A stretch of DNA of 64,000 nucleotides from Thiohalophilus sp. Its GTDB lineage: Bacteria; Pseudomonadota; Gammaproteobacteria; UBA6429; Thiohalophilaceae. Positions 8,066 to 51,531 of this stretch are shown here, one piece after another. The position numbers and the translations under genes are program-made. The notes below the pieces were generated by a model. It did not search any database. It had not been told where the DNA came from and saw only the letters and a program-made list of their open reading frames with translations. Every line of letters begins with the position of its first letter. Within the stretch, counting starts at the first letter, position 1. The DNA is taken from assembly GCF_034522235.1 (NCBI RefSeq), contig NZ_JAXHLN010000003.1, forward strand, positions 2,356,001 through 2,420,000. Reading direction: 5' to 3'.

Positions 8066-11000
8066 CTATTTCTTCTTCGCCGCCCTTTTCTCAGCCCGCT
8101 TGAGCCGTGAAGACAGCCGCCGCGCCAGGTCCCCGAACAGCTCGGTCTGGGTCGGGTGCGGGTGGATGGCCTGGCCGACCTGTTCCAGGGTCAGGTCGCC
8201 GGCGACCATCATCACGCCCTCGCCGATCAGGGTGTCGGCGTGATCGGCCAGGAAGTGCACGCCGATGACCCGGTGGCTGGTCTTCTCGGCGACGATTTTG
8301 ATCAGCCCCTGGGTCTCGCCGGTGATCATGGCCTTGGCGTCGACGCTCATCGGCACCTTGATCTCGGCGGCGTCGATGCCCTGCTCTTTGGCCTGGTCCG
8401 ACGACAGCCCGACGAACGCGGCCTGGGGGCGGGTGAAGATGACGCCCGAGTCCCTGGCCTGGTCGTAGGCAGCAGATTCACCCGCCATCGTCATGGCGGC
8501 GACGCGGCCCTGCTGGCCGGCGGTGTGAGCGAGCATTAACCCACCGATGACATCGCCGACGGCGAAGATGTGCGGCACATTCGTGCGGCACTGGGCATCG
8601 GCGCTGATGACACCTTTGTCCGTTTCGACGCCGGCCCTGTCCAGCTGCAGCGGATCCAGCACCGGGCGCTTGCCGGTGGCCATGATCACGTAGTCGCAGC
8701 TGTAGGTGTGGTCCTTGCCGTCACTGCCTTCGTAGACGATCTTCATCTTGCCCGGCTCGCCCTTGAGTTCCTTGACCTTGACGGAAGTCTCGATGCTCAG
8801 GCGCGGGTCGTCATTCAATACGGCGGTGAGGTTTTTGGCCACTTCCGACTCGACTTCGGCCAGGATGCGGTCGTTGCCTTCGAGCAGCAGCACTTTGGCG
8901 CCGAAGTCCTGGAAGATCTGCGCCATCTCGACGCCGATGGCGCCGCCGCCGATCACGCCCAGGCGTTTGGGCGCGTCTTTGAGGCCCCAGACGGTGTCGG
9001 AGGTGAGCACACCGCCATTGTCCACGCCGGTGTCGGCGCCGGGGATTGGCGGCACGAACGGCGGGGCGCCGGTGGCGATGACCGCCGCGCCGAAGGTGAT
9101 CTTCTTGGTGTTCTTGCCGTCGCCCATCGGGGCGCGGGTGTGCGGGTCTTTCTGGTTGCCGCCGGTGTCGACGCTGACGGTGTGATCGTCCTCGAAGCGG
9201 GCGAAGCCCTGGATGACGTCGATCTTCACACCCTTGTCGGTGTTGAGCGCCATCTTGCCGCGCTCTTCGAGCACGCCGCGACGGTGTTTTTCCAGGCTGG
9301 GGAAATCCAGCTCGGGTTTGGCGGTGCCCTTGATGCCGAGCAGCTTGTCGTGGGCGCGATCGCGGATCTTGTCCGCCGCCGCGCGCCACGCCTTGGAGGG
9401 AATGCAGCCGCGCCACAGGCATTCGCCGCCGGGGAACGGCGAGTCGTTGATCATGGCGACCTTGTAGCCGTGGTCTTTCAGATCCCGGGCGCAGTCCTCG
9501 CCGCCGGGGCCGCCGCCGATGACGACCACGTCGTAATCCCAGTCGCCCTCGGGCAGCTTGAAGCTCGGTTCACTGGCCGGGGCGGCGGCGGTCGTGCTGG
9601 CGCTGCCGGTACTGGCCGCCATACCCGCTGCCGGCGCGGCGGCGGCATCCAGCCAGGTCGGGTTCTCGACCAGTTCCTTGAAGGTGCCGAGGAACTTGGC
9701 GGCGTCGGCGCCGTTGACGATGCGGTGATCGGCGGTGATGGTCACCGGCATGCCCTGCGGGCCGACGGTGGCAATCGCGAAGATCGCCGAGGTGCCCGGC
9801 GAGGGAATCGCGTCGAACTGGCTGACGCCCAGCATCCCCATGTTGGAGATGGTGAAGGTCGGGTTGGAGTATTCGTCCGGCTTGAGGCGGCGGGCGCGGG
9901 CGCGGTCCACCAGATCCTTCCAGCCGGCGGCCAGGTCGGCCACCTCGCGGTTGCCGGCATCGCGCAGCACCGGTACCACCAGGCCCATGCCTTCGGTTTC
10001 CACCGCCAGGCCGATGTCGATCTGCTCGCGCTCGACGATGCGATCTTCATGCTGGTAGACGGCGTTGATCACCGGGTGCTTGTCGATGGCCAGCGCGGCG
10101 GCCTTGGCCAGGGTCACGGTCAGCGAGAAGCCCTTGGCCTTGGAGGTGGTCTTCAGCGCGCTCGGATCGATGTGGCTGGTGACGCGGAACAGCGGCATGG
10201 AAACCGAATATTCCATGTTGTGCGCCACGGCCTTTTCCATCGCGGTCATCGGCCGCCCTTCGCCCGGCACCTGGTAGATGCGCTGGGTGGTGGACTTCTG
10301 GATGTTGCTGTTGAGCACGTCGGCGGCGACGATGGCGCCGCCCGGGCCGCTGCCCGGCACGCTGTTGAGATCGATGCCGTGGGCGCCGGCCAGCTGGCGG
10401 GCGTACGGGGTCGCGTTCTTGTTGCTCGGCCGCGGCGCCGGGGTGGCGCCGTGCGGCTGGGCCGCGATGCGGGTCTTGGCCTTGGCGGTGCCGGCCGGCT
10501 CGGATTTGGGTCTCGCGGCCGCGGCGGCCGCCGGGGCGGCACTGCTGGCGGCTTTCTTGCTGTCGACGACCTGGTCCGGTTCGTTGACCAGGTAGGCGAT
10601 CGCCTCGCCCACCGGGATGGTGGCGTCGGTCTCGGCCATGGGGCCGGACAGGTAGCCGTCGCGGAACACTTCCACGTCCATGATCGCCTTGTCGGTCTCG
10701 ACCTGGGCGACCACGTCGCCACGGGCGATCTTGTCGCCGATGGCTTTCTCCCAGCTGACCATGACGCCCTCGGTCATGGTGTCGGAGAGCTGGGGCATTT
10801 TAATGGTGTGGGCGTCCTCGGCCGGGGCCACTTCAACATTCGCAGCTTCGGCGGGCGCGGCGGCCTGTTCGGCCTCGGGGGCGGCGGCTTCCCCGGCCGG
10901 GGCGGCTTCGCCACCGCTACTGGCGACCGGGGCGTCGCCTTCGGAGTGCACCTCGTCGGCACTGGCGACCAGGTAACCCATCGCCTCACCGACCGGGATG

Positions 11001-47752: not shown

Positions 47753-47771
47753 CCACACAGAGCAATAGTAC

Positions 47772-47940
47772 CGTAGGCTCGATAAAGCGAAGCGATATCG
47801 GGCAACTCGAAGTAAGCTTCACAACACGAGAGCCGGGGTGTACTGCAGGCCCGATAAAGCACCCTGCGGGCATAAACTCTGCGGTATCGGGCAACACCTC
47901 CGATTGCCGGACACCGCTTTGCTATGTCCGGCCTACCACT
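47772..47940. repeat. CCCGATAAAGC/GTCCGGCCTAC palindromic repeats downstream of dam
   Basis: 47772-47808 has GTAGGCTCGATAAAGCGAAG pairing with ATCGGGCAAC. 47846-47940 repeats the motif and continues CGATTGCCGGACACCGC... to TATGTCCGGCCTACCACT, nearly the same as 31549-31626. The 308-bp spacer has no gene. Confidence 0.8.
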
Positions 47941-48060
47941 GAGGGATGTGCCTGGCTCCCAACAGGTTCTAAACCCGTCCTCACCGGGGTAAATTGGCGG
48001 GAACGGCAGTCCGCCACGCATCGCCCACGGGGCTACCAGGTGCAGCCCCACACCCCTGTG

Positions 48061-48876
48061 TCAGCCCCGAATCAAATCAATATCCGTTCTCGCCCAGGGT
48101 GAGGATTGAAAAAACGTCAACAGATCATCCCATTCAGTCACCCGACCACACGCGCAATCGTCAACCGACCGATATGGCGGGGCGGACTCCTCAACCGCCC
48201 AGCGCATCAGCGCGGCGATATGCCGGCCGATCCCGGCTACCGCTTCAATCTCATCCCGACCCGCCATCAACACCGCTTCAACGCTGCCAAAATGCGCCAG
48301 CAACCTCGCCGCGCGCGCCGGGCCAATCCCGGGCAACCCCTGCAACAGATAAGATTGCAAGGCGCGCTTGCCCGTCGGGCGTTTTCCCTGCCGTGGCAGG
48401 CCACCGCTGGCGACTGTCCGCCCCTGACGCGCCGCAAAAAGCATGACGCGTGCTGTCTCCCGGGCACAGCGGGTACGCAACAACGGCAGACCGATGAACA
48501 GGGACACAGTAACAAGCGCCCCCTGTATCGCCTCCCGGCACATACCGCTGCCTTCAATATCCCTGGCAGTCCCCTCCAGTATCATCGCGGTTCGCCATGA
48601 CTCCACCCCGGCAAGCCGCAATGCCTGTTGAAACAACCGCCCAGAAGCTATCGAGGCCACCAGATCAGGCAAGGTTTTGCGCTCGAACAGAAAACGGTTA
48701 TCCACCCGATAGTCCCCGACGGATAACCGCTCAACACCGACGGAAAACTCCGGCATGCCACGCAAAATATCAATCATGCCACCCCGCGCCTCGCGATCAT
48801 CCGCAATGATCGAAACGGGGTTCCCGGAATGAGTCGATGAAGAACGACGCGAAGCTGTGCCTTTTTCCATTTTCAC
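48061..48876 (-). CDS. XPF/ERCC4-type structure-specific nuclease with HhH domain
   Basis: The 271-residue protein has the ERCC4 nuclease signature: IIADDREARG (residues 23-32), GDY (54-56), FERK (64-67) and Asp71, followed by SIASGRLFQQ. A tandem helix-hairpin-helix region lies at about 175-230 (LPGIGPARAARLL; VAGIGRHIAALM). There is no helicase domain, so the layout resembles short crenarchaeal XPF. Such enzymes cut branched DNA. Start GTG 48876 has GGGAG 9 bp upstream; ATG 48870 is an alternative. It lies downstream of an isolated CRISPR-like repeat. Confidence 0.88.
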   Translation of the reverse strand: MKMEKGTASRRSSSTHSGNPVSIIADDREARGGMIDILRGMPEFSVGVERLSVGDYRVDNRFLFERKTLPDLVASIASGRLFQQALRLAGVESWRTAMILEGTARDIEGSGMCREAIQGALVTVSLFIGLPLLRTRCARETARVMLFAARQGRTVASGGLPRQGKRPTGKRALQSYLLQGLPGIGPARAARLLAHFGSVEAVLMAGRDEIEAVAGIGRHIAALMRWAVEESAPPYRSVDDCACGRVTEWDDLLTFFQSSPWARTDIDLIRG

Positions 48877-48986
48877 ACTTTACCGCTCCCTGTAATCATC
48901 GCTGCCTCTTCCAGCAAAGTGCGATTACGCCGGAATCAGGCAAACGGAAACCCTCGTCTCACAGTCGATCCGGGTGAATTCCAGCT

Positions 48987-49014
48987 TTTCTAAGCTGCCT
49001 GTGCGGCAGTGAAC
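48987..49014 (-). CRISPR. Single type I-F-like CRISPR repeat with leader-like sequence
   Basis: Read on the minus strand, this 28-bp segment begins GTTCACTGCCGCACAGG and ends GCAGCTTAGAAA, which agrees over its whole length with the type I-F repeat consensus as I know it. It contains the CTGCC...GGCAG stem. The AT-rich DNA on its 5' side (49015-49158) resembles an I-F leader, including CTCTTTAACAATT. No second repeat follows at the expected 32-bp spacer distance, and no cas gene is in the window, so this is a relic or solo array. Confidence 0.72.
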
Positions 49015-49037
49015 ACCAATATTACATACAAAAAATA

Positions 49038-49102
49038 AGTTACAACAACCACTTAACGTATTTTTGGGCTTTTTACCCGAATTTTCGTGCGTTGTTGTAA
49101 CT
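49038..49102. repeat. 12-bp perfect inverted repeat in the leader-like region
   Basis: AGTTACAACAAC (49038-49049) and GTTGTTGTAACT (49091-49102) are separated by 41 bp. It lies between the I-F-like repeat and the antitoxin gene and could be a protein-binding or insertion-footprint site. Confidence 0.6.
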
Positions 49103-49158
49103 AATTGATAATAATGCGAATTGTTAAAGAGCGATTTTTATTGGTTATCTGATGGGAA

Positions 49159-49437
49159 TCAGGCCGCGTGTGATATCTCCAGATTCACTTTATAGCCAAC
49201 CGCCGAGAGCATGTTCACCAGGCGATCGATGGTGCATTTTTCGATTCTGCCTTTGAGCACATCATTGAGCCTCGGCTGGGTTATGCCAAGCTTCTTTGCC
49301 GCTTCGGCCTGAGTCAGGCCGGATTGTTTGACATAGTCGGCGACTTCCATCATTAACCGGGCGCGCAGTTTCAGATTTGCGGCCTGCACCTGATCGTTTT
49401 CAATCGCGTCCCAAACACTGTCGAATTCCTTTACCAT
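49159..49437 (-). CDS. XRE-family antitoxin (HTH_37 type)
   Basis: The 92-residue protein has a Cro/C1 HTH (SGLTQAEAAKKLGITQPRLNDVLKGRIEKC) in the form usual for antitoxins paired with Gp49-like toxins. It would neutralise the toxin and repress the operon. It starts 2 bp after the toxin stop codon, toxin first, as in higBA-type modules. Confidence 0.88.
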   Translation of the reverse strand: MVKEFDSVWDAIENDQVQAANLKLRARLMMEVADYVKQSGLTQAEAAKKLGITQPRLNDVLKGRIEKCTIDRLVNMLSAVGYKVNLEISHAA

Positions 49438-49439
49438 GA

Positions 49440-49763
49440 TTAACGGTACCTCTTGACCACTTCCTTAAACCTGTTTCTCGCTATCTCAATGTCTGACTGA
49501 CGGGTCTTCTGCGTTTTTTTCTCAAACACATGCAGGATATGAACCTTCATGTCAAACTTCGCGATATAAACAACCCGAAATTGCCTGCCTGTCTGTATCC
49601 GGAGCTCGCGTACACCTTGACCAATGGTTGGAAACGGTTTCCAGTTTTCCGGCACCTTGTCCCGTTGTACGCGGTCAATCTCATAACCGGCACGATGACG
49701 CGCATCGCCCGGTAACGCACGAATTACGTCCAGGGAATCGCCCTCGAATACGACCTTTCTCAT
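49440..49763 (-). CDS. RelE/HigB-superfamily toxin (phage Gp49-like)
   Basis: The 107-residue basic protein has the Gp49-like pattern: VIRALPGDARHRAGYEIDRV, GVRELRIQTGRQFRVVYIAKF, and VHILHVFEKKTQKTRQSDIEIA. The family includes ribosome-dependent mRNA endonucleases. It is first in a two-gene operon behind a palindromic operator. Confidence 0.88.
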   Translation of the reverse strand: MRKVVFEGDSLDVIRALPGDARHRAGYEIDRVQRDKVPENWKPFPTIGQGVRELRIQTGRQFRVVYIAKFDMKVHILHVFEKKTQKTRQSDIEIARNRFKEVVKRYR

Positions 49764-49782
49764 GATAGTCCCTTATCCTGAA

Positions 49783-49800
49783 TATATCAAGTTTGATATA
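49783..49800. promoter_or_regulatory. Palindromic operator of the toxin-antitoxin operon
   Basis: TATATCAAGTTTGATATA has two perfect 8-bp arms around a 2-bp centre. It lies about 20 bp before the toxin start codon, where the antitoxin is expected to bind. Confidence 0.75.
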
Positions 49801-49815
49801 ACTTGTTGCGCAGCT

Positions 49816-50421
49816 CTATCTCACAGGCCTTGCACATTTATCCCCACGTGCGTGGGGAACACGCATTATTGCCGGCCAGTAACCGGCGAGCCAGTCCTGC
49901 AGATCGTCTTCGTCACCTGTGACAATAGCGAAAAAATAGTCACACAGCAGTCGTCCGGCCCGCTCGCCGGACATCAACCCGAGAATCATCACCGCATGCA
50001 GCGGCAGCCACCAGGCCTCATCGTTTGCCTCATCCCAGTAAGGCCGGGTTTGCAGCAAAGACTCCAGTTCATCCAGATGGCATCGCCGCGGCGGGCGCAT
50101 TCGTCGATGAGATTGCGCGGCACGCGATCGCCGTTTTCCGCCAGGCTGTCGAGCAACCCCGACTCCGACATCGCCGCCAGTTCAGTACCCTCATAAACGG
50201 GGGATGAGGGAAGAAAATCCTCAATGTCCAGGCCCAGCATTGCGTTGACATGCTCAATATCAAAATAGGCCGGGTCGAATTCCTCCCCGAGCCATTCCTG
50301 CGCATCGTCATGCGCTTCGTGCGCCTTCACCGGCGAGGCAGCGGGGATAGGCCGCCTCCGCTTCGGGCTCCAGGATCGTTTCTATACGCAGACTGATATT
50401 GATCCGGTAGATATCATTCAT
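49816..50421 (-). pseudogene. Decayed pRiA4b ORF-3-like protein gene
   Basis: Starting at ATG 50421 the frame reads MNDIYRINISLR, then directly a segment like the late part of pRiA4b ORF-3 domains (PEAEAAYPRCLAGEG). It then stops; a different frame continues with AHDDAQEWLGEEFDPAYFD and SLAENGDRVPRNLIDECARR. A further 1-nt shift near 50080 leads to LDELESLLQTRPYWDEAND and WWLPLHAVMILGLMSGERAG. So there is a large internal deletion and two frameshifts. The last residues (MRVPHARGDK) come from the CRISPR-like repeat at 49837-49862. Confidence 0.75.
49837..49862 (-). CRISPR. Single type I-E-like CRISPR repeat
   Basis: On the minus strand the segment reads GTGTTCCCCACGCACGTGGG and continues GATAAA, the type I-E repeat form with its CCCCAC...GTGGGG stem. 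The last bases after GATAAA (TGTG) depart from the usual CCG, as expected for a leader-distal degenerate repeat. No second copy is found and no cas genes are present. It is fused to the pRiA4b-like pseudogene. Confidence 0.7.
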
Positions 50422-50460
50422 TGGAACACCTCGTTCGTTTTGTGCCCTGCCCTCAGATCA

Positions 50461-51531
50461 CTAGCGTAGCGGAATAACACGATCACCCTGATGGCGATAA
50501 AGCCGCCAGTCATCATCGCCATTATTGCAGGCGCCGAAGCGAAACGGGACATTGCGGGTATCGCCCAGAATAAAACGGTGATCCTCGTACCAGGCACACA
50601 GCCCCTGTTCGCGCTGTTCAATGCGATACAACGCGGGAAACAGCATGAACTCGCGAATGTCTTTTAACACATCCTGTTCCCAGACATCCTGCGCCAGTTT
50701 CTGTCCGATTCCCTCACCGTAACGGGGTAAAGTTTGCCAGGCGACATTGTCCAGCGGGCGGTAGATTGCGTTGATGCGGGCGAACATACCGGCCTGTTCA
50801 TCCGGCTCCGGAACCACCTGCTCGCGATGCAGGTTTACATAACTCACGTGATAGTGCTGTGGCTGCTCGATCACGATCTTCCAGTTAAACGGCGACAGGG
50901 GTTGTGGCAGGGCGTGCACTTCGGCCTGCTCCAGTCCCTGGTGTCGGACATACTCCCGACCCAGATCGCGCGCCTCCCAGGCCTGGTAATGTTGAAAACC
51001 GACATATAACGCCAGCGTGGCCAGGCCGGTCAGCGCCAGCTGTTGCCCCTGCCGGCGCCAGACCCAGGCGGCAATCAATGCCAGCACAATGATGCCAGTG
51101 AACCAGAAATCGATAATAAAGGTAGACGGCAGGGAAAACTTGGCATGGCTGAACGGCGCCAGGATCATGGTGCCAAACGAGGTAATCACATCCCCGAAGA
51201 TATGAATCCCCAGGCTCATGACACACACGGCATAAAAGGCTTTCCAGTGATACTGGCCGCGCCATAACAGCATAAACAACAGCGACAGCAGCCCGGCCCA
51301 TAACGGCAGCATCAATACAGAGTGCGTCACGCCGCGGTGATATTTCAGGTAGGACAGGGGCCCGTCGATCAGCCGCAGCAGAAAATCGCTGTCCGGGAAG
51401 ATGCCGGCGAGAAACCCCGCCGCCAGGCGGGTACGCAGAGAGAGGGTCCGGCTGTCCGCAAAACGGCGGGATTCGGGGGCTGTGGCCCGTGCCAGCAGGA
51501 CACTGCTCAGGCCATGCGTCAGTGTATCCAT
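50461..51531 (-). CDS. DUF457 (YdjM-like) membrane-bound metal-dependent hydrolase
   Basis: The 356-residue protein begins MDTLTHGLSSVLLARA and contains LAGIFPDSDFLL, KYHRGVTHSVLMLP and SLGIHIFGDVITSFG. The His and Asp residues of these motifs, with four or five transmembrane helices, define the DUF457 family. The C-terminal 160 residues are soluble. Substrate is unknown. Confidence 0.88.
   Translation of the reverse strand: MDTLTHGLSSVLLARATAPESRRFADSRTLSLRTRLAAGFLAGIFPDSDFLLRLIDGPLSYLKYHRGVTHSVLMLPLWAGLLSLLFMLLWRGQYHWKAFYAVCVMSLGIHIFGDVITSFGTMILAPFSHAKFSLPSTFIIDFWFTGIIVLALIAAWVWRRQGQQLALTGLATLALYVGFQHYQAWEARDLGREYVRHQGLEQAEVHALPQPLSPFNWKIVIEQPQHYHVSYVNLHREQVVPEPDEQAGMFARINAIYRPLDNVAWQTLPRYGEGIGQKLAQDVWEQDVLKDIREFMLFPALYRIEQREQGLCAWYEDHRFILGDTRNVPFRFGACNNGDDDWRLYRHQGDRVIPLR

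Follow-up and report, generated by a model that had tools for sequence, protein, structure and literature searches.

Toxin-antitoxin (TA) genes have been described inside CRISPR-Cas loci. In Pectobacterium, according to the available part of one study, they lie between the cas genes and the arrays of type I-F and type I-E loci, and RelE/ParE and HigB toxins are named beside the I-E loci (PMC6963963). A ParDE pair is placed in a type II-C locus in the accessible portion of a further report (PMC8092290), and the available text on CreTA modules situates them around cas6 (PMC10097628); a review on CreTA makes no mention of HigB in its accessible part (PMC12737573). Solitary repeats act as RNA anti-CRISPRs (Racr), as the available section of one paper states (PMC10651486), and an excerpt of another describes E. 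coli strains that have repeat regions but lack cas genes (PMC12736100). CRISPR relics as such are already known, and the site described here adds one more example. As in those E. coli strains, going by the same excerpt, CRISPR parts have been left without cas genes, repeat regions in the strains and one repeat here (PMC12736100).

The DNA analyzed here (the window, 64,000 nucleotides) contains a lone type I-F repeat, GTTCACTGCCGCACAGGCAGCTTAGAAA, at positions 48987 to 49014 on the minus strand, which was recognized both by Rfam and by mismatch searches. Rfam CRISPR-DR4 matched all 28 of its 28 positions with 50.1 bits (gathering score, 35; E value, 3.5e-10), and GTTCACTGCCGCACAGGCAGCTTAGAAA had a single match at up to three mismatches in the window and none in 100 dinucleotide shuffles. 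The original prediction, made from the letters alone, had claimed a 28/28 agreement with the I-F repeat and had named as points against itself a poor match to curated I-F repeats and recurrence of the 28-mer across the genome. The agreement is upheld by the CRISPR-DR4 alignment, with a score well above the cutoff of 35, and the 28-mer does not recur: the exact sequence at up to two mismatches matched once in the whole genome, as did a one-base variant at up to three mismatches in the 3,055,478-base genome. The further claim that the repeat stands alone, with none following after 32 bp, also proved correct, as the next repeat register has mismatches at 24 of 28 positions. The best candidate for a second repeat within 400 bp had 16 mismatches, which was reached or beaten by 1,000 of 1,000 shuffles, and the repeat together with the 37 nt behind it folded no better than shuffled sequence (125 of 200 shuffles folded equally well). 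The site thus has the family repeat of a type I-F array, and a leader beside it, with one repeat where an array has at least two.

A real array that collapsed to one repeat in the assembly would look the same, and arrays are hard to assemble; in one of the genomes compared below (G169), the contig ends inside the first repeat. The repeat described here, however, lies inside a 2.49-Mb contig of a three-contig genome from which Cas6f and Csy3 are missing too, and we regard an assembly artifact as very unlikely. Within two mismatches, the 28-mer was found in 31 of 369 genomes of the class, which were drawn evenly from a larger group and included four members of the window's family; the reversed control gave zero among the matches listed. 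Four of the 31 had one copy of the repeat (the window's genome, G000, together with G169, G177, and G316). Besides the broken contig of G169, these include G177 and G316, where about 3 kb holds 13 and 25 repeats, respectively, at up to four mismatches, leaving G000 as the only genuinely lone copy among the four single-copy genomes of this sample.

The DNA at 49015 to 49139 (minus strand) next to the repeat is a true I-F leader, judging from its homology to leaders of the family and of G265 and from leave-one-out scoring. The original prediction had called it AT rich and leader-like and had pointed to CTCTTTAACAATT within it. This description is supported by a G+C content of 0.31 for 49015 to 49158, compared with 0.57 for the window, and by 75 to 82% identity to other I-F leaders: the flank plus repeat shared 75 to 77% identity over 149 to 164 bp with three family relatives (G035, G013, and G015) and 82% over 153 bp with G265. 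A leader-only query against 40 genomes of the order matched G000, G035, G013, and G015, and a 291-bp query spanning the site matched 6 of 58 relatives, own genome counted. For scoring, a profile was built from 14 aligned I-F leaders, chosen from loci in which sequence upstream of the first repeat is present; left out of it were G265 and loci L112, L126, and L134, which have other or short flanks. With the repeat included, the leave-one-out score of G000 was the highest of the 14 (145.9); for the leader alone it was second (92.4, compared with 92.5 for G013), and when family members were excluded from the profile, its rank was third, after G013 and G035. Shuffled versions of the G000 leader scored −81 on average and −26 at most. 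By these scores the leader has not decayed.

The leader contains an inverted repeat at 49034 to 49106 on the minus strand, with arms at 49034 to 49049 and 49091 to 49106, and similar arms are found at the equivalent place in the leaders of G015, G013, and G265. CTCTTTAACAATT lies at 49119 to 49131 (minus strand), and CTCTTTAA (or, in two leaders, TTCTTTAA) is present in 12 of 15 leaders examined, that of G000 counted. We take CTCTTTAACAATT to resemble the boxA of rRNA operons; a literature search found no such likeness of a CRISPR leader in print. A promoter scan of the leader found no site on the minus strand, and on the plus strand one promoter-like and one terminator-like site, about the number given by shuffles. 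The case for transcription from the leader is therefore one of leader homology. If the leader still starts a transcript, this would run through one repeat hairpin, which no Cas6f would be there to cut, and on towards the ERCC4 gene described below.

Comparison with intact loci shows where a leader of this kind belongs. A block of 815 bp (49800 to 48986) comprising higB, higA, leader, and repeat aligned with a locus of G282, a member of another family, over 819 columns with 72% identity. The order in G282 is cas1-cas2/3-csy1-csy2-csy3-cas6f-higB-higA-leader-array; every cas gene is above its Pfam cutoff, and the genome has 82 repeats. In G265 the order is csy3-cas6f-higB-higA, followed by about 480 bp, the leader, and 49 repeats. 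G013 has cas1 and cas6f, then the C-terminal stump of a HigA (a reading made by eye, without a score) between cas6f and the leader, and 7 repeats up to the end of the contig; in G015, csy3, csy4, and cas3 accompany 107 repeats. The window corresponds to the central part of such a locus. Its higB, higA, leader, and first repeat share homology and order with those of the intact I-F loci of G282 and G265, but there is no cas6f before the block, nor any other cas gene beside it, and no array behind it.

Searches with two I-F Cas proteins, Cas6f and Csy3, found no match for either anywhere in the window's genome. The original prediction had called for a genome-wide search for I-F cas genes and for arrays with the same repeat; for these two proteins there were none, and the repeat has no other copy. 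The sole Cas1 in the genome belongs to another system, as a Cas4-Cas1 fusion. This fusion lies with a GSU0053-type cas gene and a regular 23-repeat array at about 1322000 to 1341000 of contig C3 (L079), a system that we take to be type I-G.

Because the block is homologous to the loci of G282, G265, and G013, and because neither Cas6f nor Csy3 was found, the site is, very probably, the relic of a lost type I-F CRISPR-Cas locus, which no longer has its cas genes and whose array has shrunk to the leader-proximal repeat, with higBA, leader, and repeat remaining in an island. It would be a clear-cut example of piecewise CRISPR-Cas loss and of what such loss leaves behind. The array may have been lost by recombination between repeats, which would be the simplest route, and the loss could have happened within this lineage or could predate the arrival of the island in it. 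Addiction to HigBA could plausibly have kept this part in place. Counting against the relic are the undecayed leader and the 110 bp behind the repeat, which have no trailer homology to any of the fetched loci.

It is also conceivable that leader and repeat were kept as a landing site, that is, as a minimal array that could be extended by Cas1-Cas2/3 coming from outside; the perfect repeat and a leader that ranks second of 14 would suit this role. However, the genome has no I-F Cas6f or Csy3 and only the Cas4-Cas1 of another type, and an undecayed leader fits recent loss as well as retention. We consider a landing site unlikely. The original prediction had left the choice between a collapsed array and a solo repeat kept as a landing site; the collapsed array is favored, since in the intact loci the block runs into the array after cas6f, and the landing site has nothing positive to its credit beyond the undecayed leader. 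In the relic reading, the lone repeat and its leader would be mostly the product of ordinary decay and most likely inert, beside a TA pair that is probably active.

The pair next to the leader consists of a higA-like antitoxin gene of the HTH_37 family at 49159 to 49437 (minus strand; Pfam, 79.1 bits; cutoff, 27) and a higB-like toxin gene of the Gp49/RelE-ParE type at 49440 to 49763 (minus strand; Pfam, 81.5 bits; cutoff, 23.9). The name HigBA is given by likeness, since the NCBIfam HigA model scored the first gene at 19.5 bits, below its cutoff of 47.7, and TIGR02683 scored the second at 28.9 bits, also below cutoff. Adjoining toxin and antitoxin genes of fitting Pfam families place the pair among the type II HigBA-like TA systems; the only PADLOC matches were two borderline ones, to higA and higB. 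A palindrome before higB, TATATCAAACTTGATATA (49783 to 49800, minus strand), is exact in G287 and G162 and has one change in G282, and the block alignment with G265 spans its position; it is likely a HigA operator. That higBA belongs to the same block as the repeat had not been part of the original prediction and was seen from the block alignment. On plasmids, HigA and HigB matched 206 and 191 records, respectively, and on phages HigA matched 71 records, all at less than 60% identity; viral contigs gave three short segments at 39 to 61% identity.

Close relatives of this HigA recur beside cas6. A search of the 369 class genomes at an E value of up to 1e-15 found HigA in 30 genomes at 31 places, with identities of 100% for G000, 77% for G265, 74% for G282, 73% for G287, and 66% for G162; all others were at 53% or less. 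In three of the four genomes other than G000 with at least 66% identity, the pair lies directly behind cas6 (cas6f twice and cas6e once), and G013, with its stump behind cas6f, is a fifth genome. In G162 (L184, 8730 to 11000), the higBA-like pair follows cas6e and precedes cas1 within a type I-E operon whose cas3, cse1, cse2, cas7e, cas5, cas6e, and cas1 genes are above Pfam cutoffs, and an array of 84 repeats follows. G287 has no array within 12 kb, and its HigA gene is 0.8 kb from the end of the contig. The more distant HigA relatives lack this link. Fetched with about 1.5 kb on each side, 25 of the 26 places with HigA at 53% identity or less showed no regular array, and one of the 25 loci (L179) had an I-E-like site, with 8 mismatches. 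In 22 loci from named genomes there was no CRISPR array in flanks of up to 10 kb; two had short repeats of other kinds. G286 and G256 do have I-F arrays, with the distant HigA on another contig or megabases away. In a tree of 43 HigA rows, from which one row with a stop, two rows of insufficient length, loci L102 to L107, and one unfetched place were omitted, the four CRISPR-linked rows, the window counted, need two changes, a value reached by 2 of 500 shuffles. The unlinked G287 falls among the linked rows, and the node that joins these five has a support of 86/94, below the tool's stricter mark.

The HigA clade linked to cas6 is possibly new; in a literature search over titles and the starts of abstracts, we found no report of a TA pair of the HigBA kind adjoining cas6. 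The Pectobacterium TA loci, to judge from the available part of that study, sit in intact CRISPR systems, whereas the pair in the window has outlived its locus, and the close HigA clade of the window recurs directly behind the cas6 of two subtypes, unlike the case described there (PMC6963963). Possibly, the HigBA-like pair is a portable protein TA system associated with cas6 neighborhoods. A more far-reaching idea, which we hold to be possible but doubtful, is that the clade is a portable guard behind cas6f and cas6e, so that loss of the CRISPR operon would release the toxin, and that in the window it outlived its system and kept leader and first repeat as a seed for regrowth. If the clade does guard cas6 neighborhoods, CreTA would have in it a protein-based counterpart acting in two CRISPR subtypes.

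CreTA, as far as its description is available, resembles the pair in being a toxin-antitoxin unit adjoining cas6; it is RNA based, with two degenerate repeats and an antitoxin that guides an effector, whereas the pair in the window is protein coding and such parts were not found (PMC10097628). A module of this kind, in which the repeat would guide an effector that silences the neighboring toxin, is suggested by the toxin gene beside the repeat and by the position of CreTA modules around cas6, as given in the same partial text (PMC10097628). Two degenerate repeats around a spacer that matches the toxin promoter would mark it. The second degenerate repeat was not found, the spacer place shares no match of at least 9 nt with the rest of the island, searches for Cas6f and Csy3 gave no I-F effector, and the toxin has a protein antitoxin of its own, which together make a CreTA-like module extremely improbable.

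The 32 bp at 48955 to 48986 (minus strand), where a spacer would be, show a weak likeness to aspS. A plasmid search gave 11 records; the two best of the matches listed carry an aspS annotation (E values, 0.08 and 1), and another record, which is unannotated, contains what reads as this aspS motif too (E value, 4). In each of the three, the match is preceded by CC, which we take to be the I-F protospacer-adjacent motif (PAM). The likeness is no more than suggestive. A 35-nt query on the spacer place gave 10 phage records at an E value of 4, the exact 32-mer and the aspS-like core had no exact match in viral contigs, and the 110 bp behind the repeat had no phage match at an E value of up to 1 and two plasmid matches at 0.9. 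The comparison with phages and plasmids proposed in the original prediction thus yielded no phage match of note and, on plasmids, the aspS likeness. Self-targeting of the genome's own aspS was considered and is unsupported, because the 32-mer differs from that gene at 11 of 32 positions, which is no rarity: 122 of 1,622 window 32-mers match it as well or better.

A solitary repeat unit that acts as an RNA anti-CRISPR would likewise appear as one repeat without an array or cas genes, and the single repeat near a helix-turn-helix gene agrees with the accessible section of the report on such units (PMC10651486). Those units, in that section, are on viruses and plasmids (PMC10651486), whereas the repeat in the window has a full CRISPR leader and the site is homologous to chromosomal CRISPR loci, as part of a block shared with I-F loci. 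The leader-repeat junction pattern had no match in viral contigs, neither the ERCC4 gene nor the 110-bp flank matched phages, and searches of the genome for Cas6f and Csy3 gave no I-F effector to be inhibited. We judge this explanation to be highly improbable. For the arrangement favored here, a leader kept with a single repeat, the literature search (titles and starts of abstracts) found no report.

The relic lies in an island at 47753 to 50466 between dam and ydjM. The congener G001 lacks the island: its alignment with the window runs up to 47752 and picks up again at 50467, and G001 has 13 bases between these points; dam and ydjM are adjacent in G005 too. Besides the relic and higBA, the 2.7-kb island includes an ERCC4-HhH gene, a lone type I-E-like repeat, and small open reading frames without Pfam matches. 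The first gene downstream of the I-F repeat, at 48061 to 48876 (minus strand), is this orphan nuclease gene of the ERCC4-HhH (Hef/XPF-like) kind, which matched Pfam ERCC4 with 58.6 bits and was below the cutoff of NCBIfam Hef. It had a whole-length match in its own genome only among 58 genomes searched, 155 plasmid records at less than 60% identity, and no phage match. An Rfam naRNA4 match below the gathering score lies at 47848 to 47933, near short direct repeats.

The I-E-like repeat, GTGTTCCCCACGCACGTGGGGATAAATG, at 49835 to 49862 (minus strand), is 34 bases before the edge of the higBA block and had not been part of the original prediction. It had no match in 100 shuffles, Rfam did not recognize it, and we label it type I-E-like from the I-E consensus and from its resemblance to the arrays of G016 and G162. 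The pattern occurs in a single copy in the genome rather than in a multicopy array; at up to three mismatches it was found in 3 of 40 genomes of the order. G025 and G016, members of the window's family, have one exact I-F repeat each, without this leader, and relics are thus not rare in the family. Together with the lone I-E-like repeat in the same island, these lone repeats fit repeated decay.

The lone I-F repeats of G025 and G016 (L066, 819 to 846, and L067, 13041 to 13068) lie within about 0.4 kb of arrays of other types, as does a lone I-E-like repeat in G020 (L143, about 9437 to 9464). In G035 (L065, 10829 to 11294), about 410 bp of other sequence separates a leader and its first repeat, which has one mismatch, from a degenerate repeat, and the next copy further on is more degenerate still; this locus is, by all appearances, another decaying I-F array.
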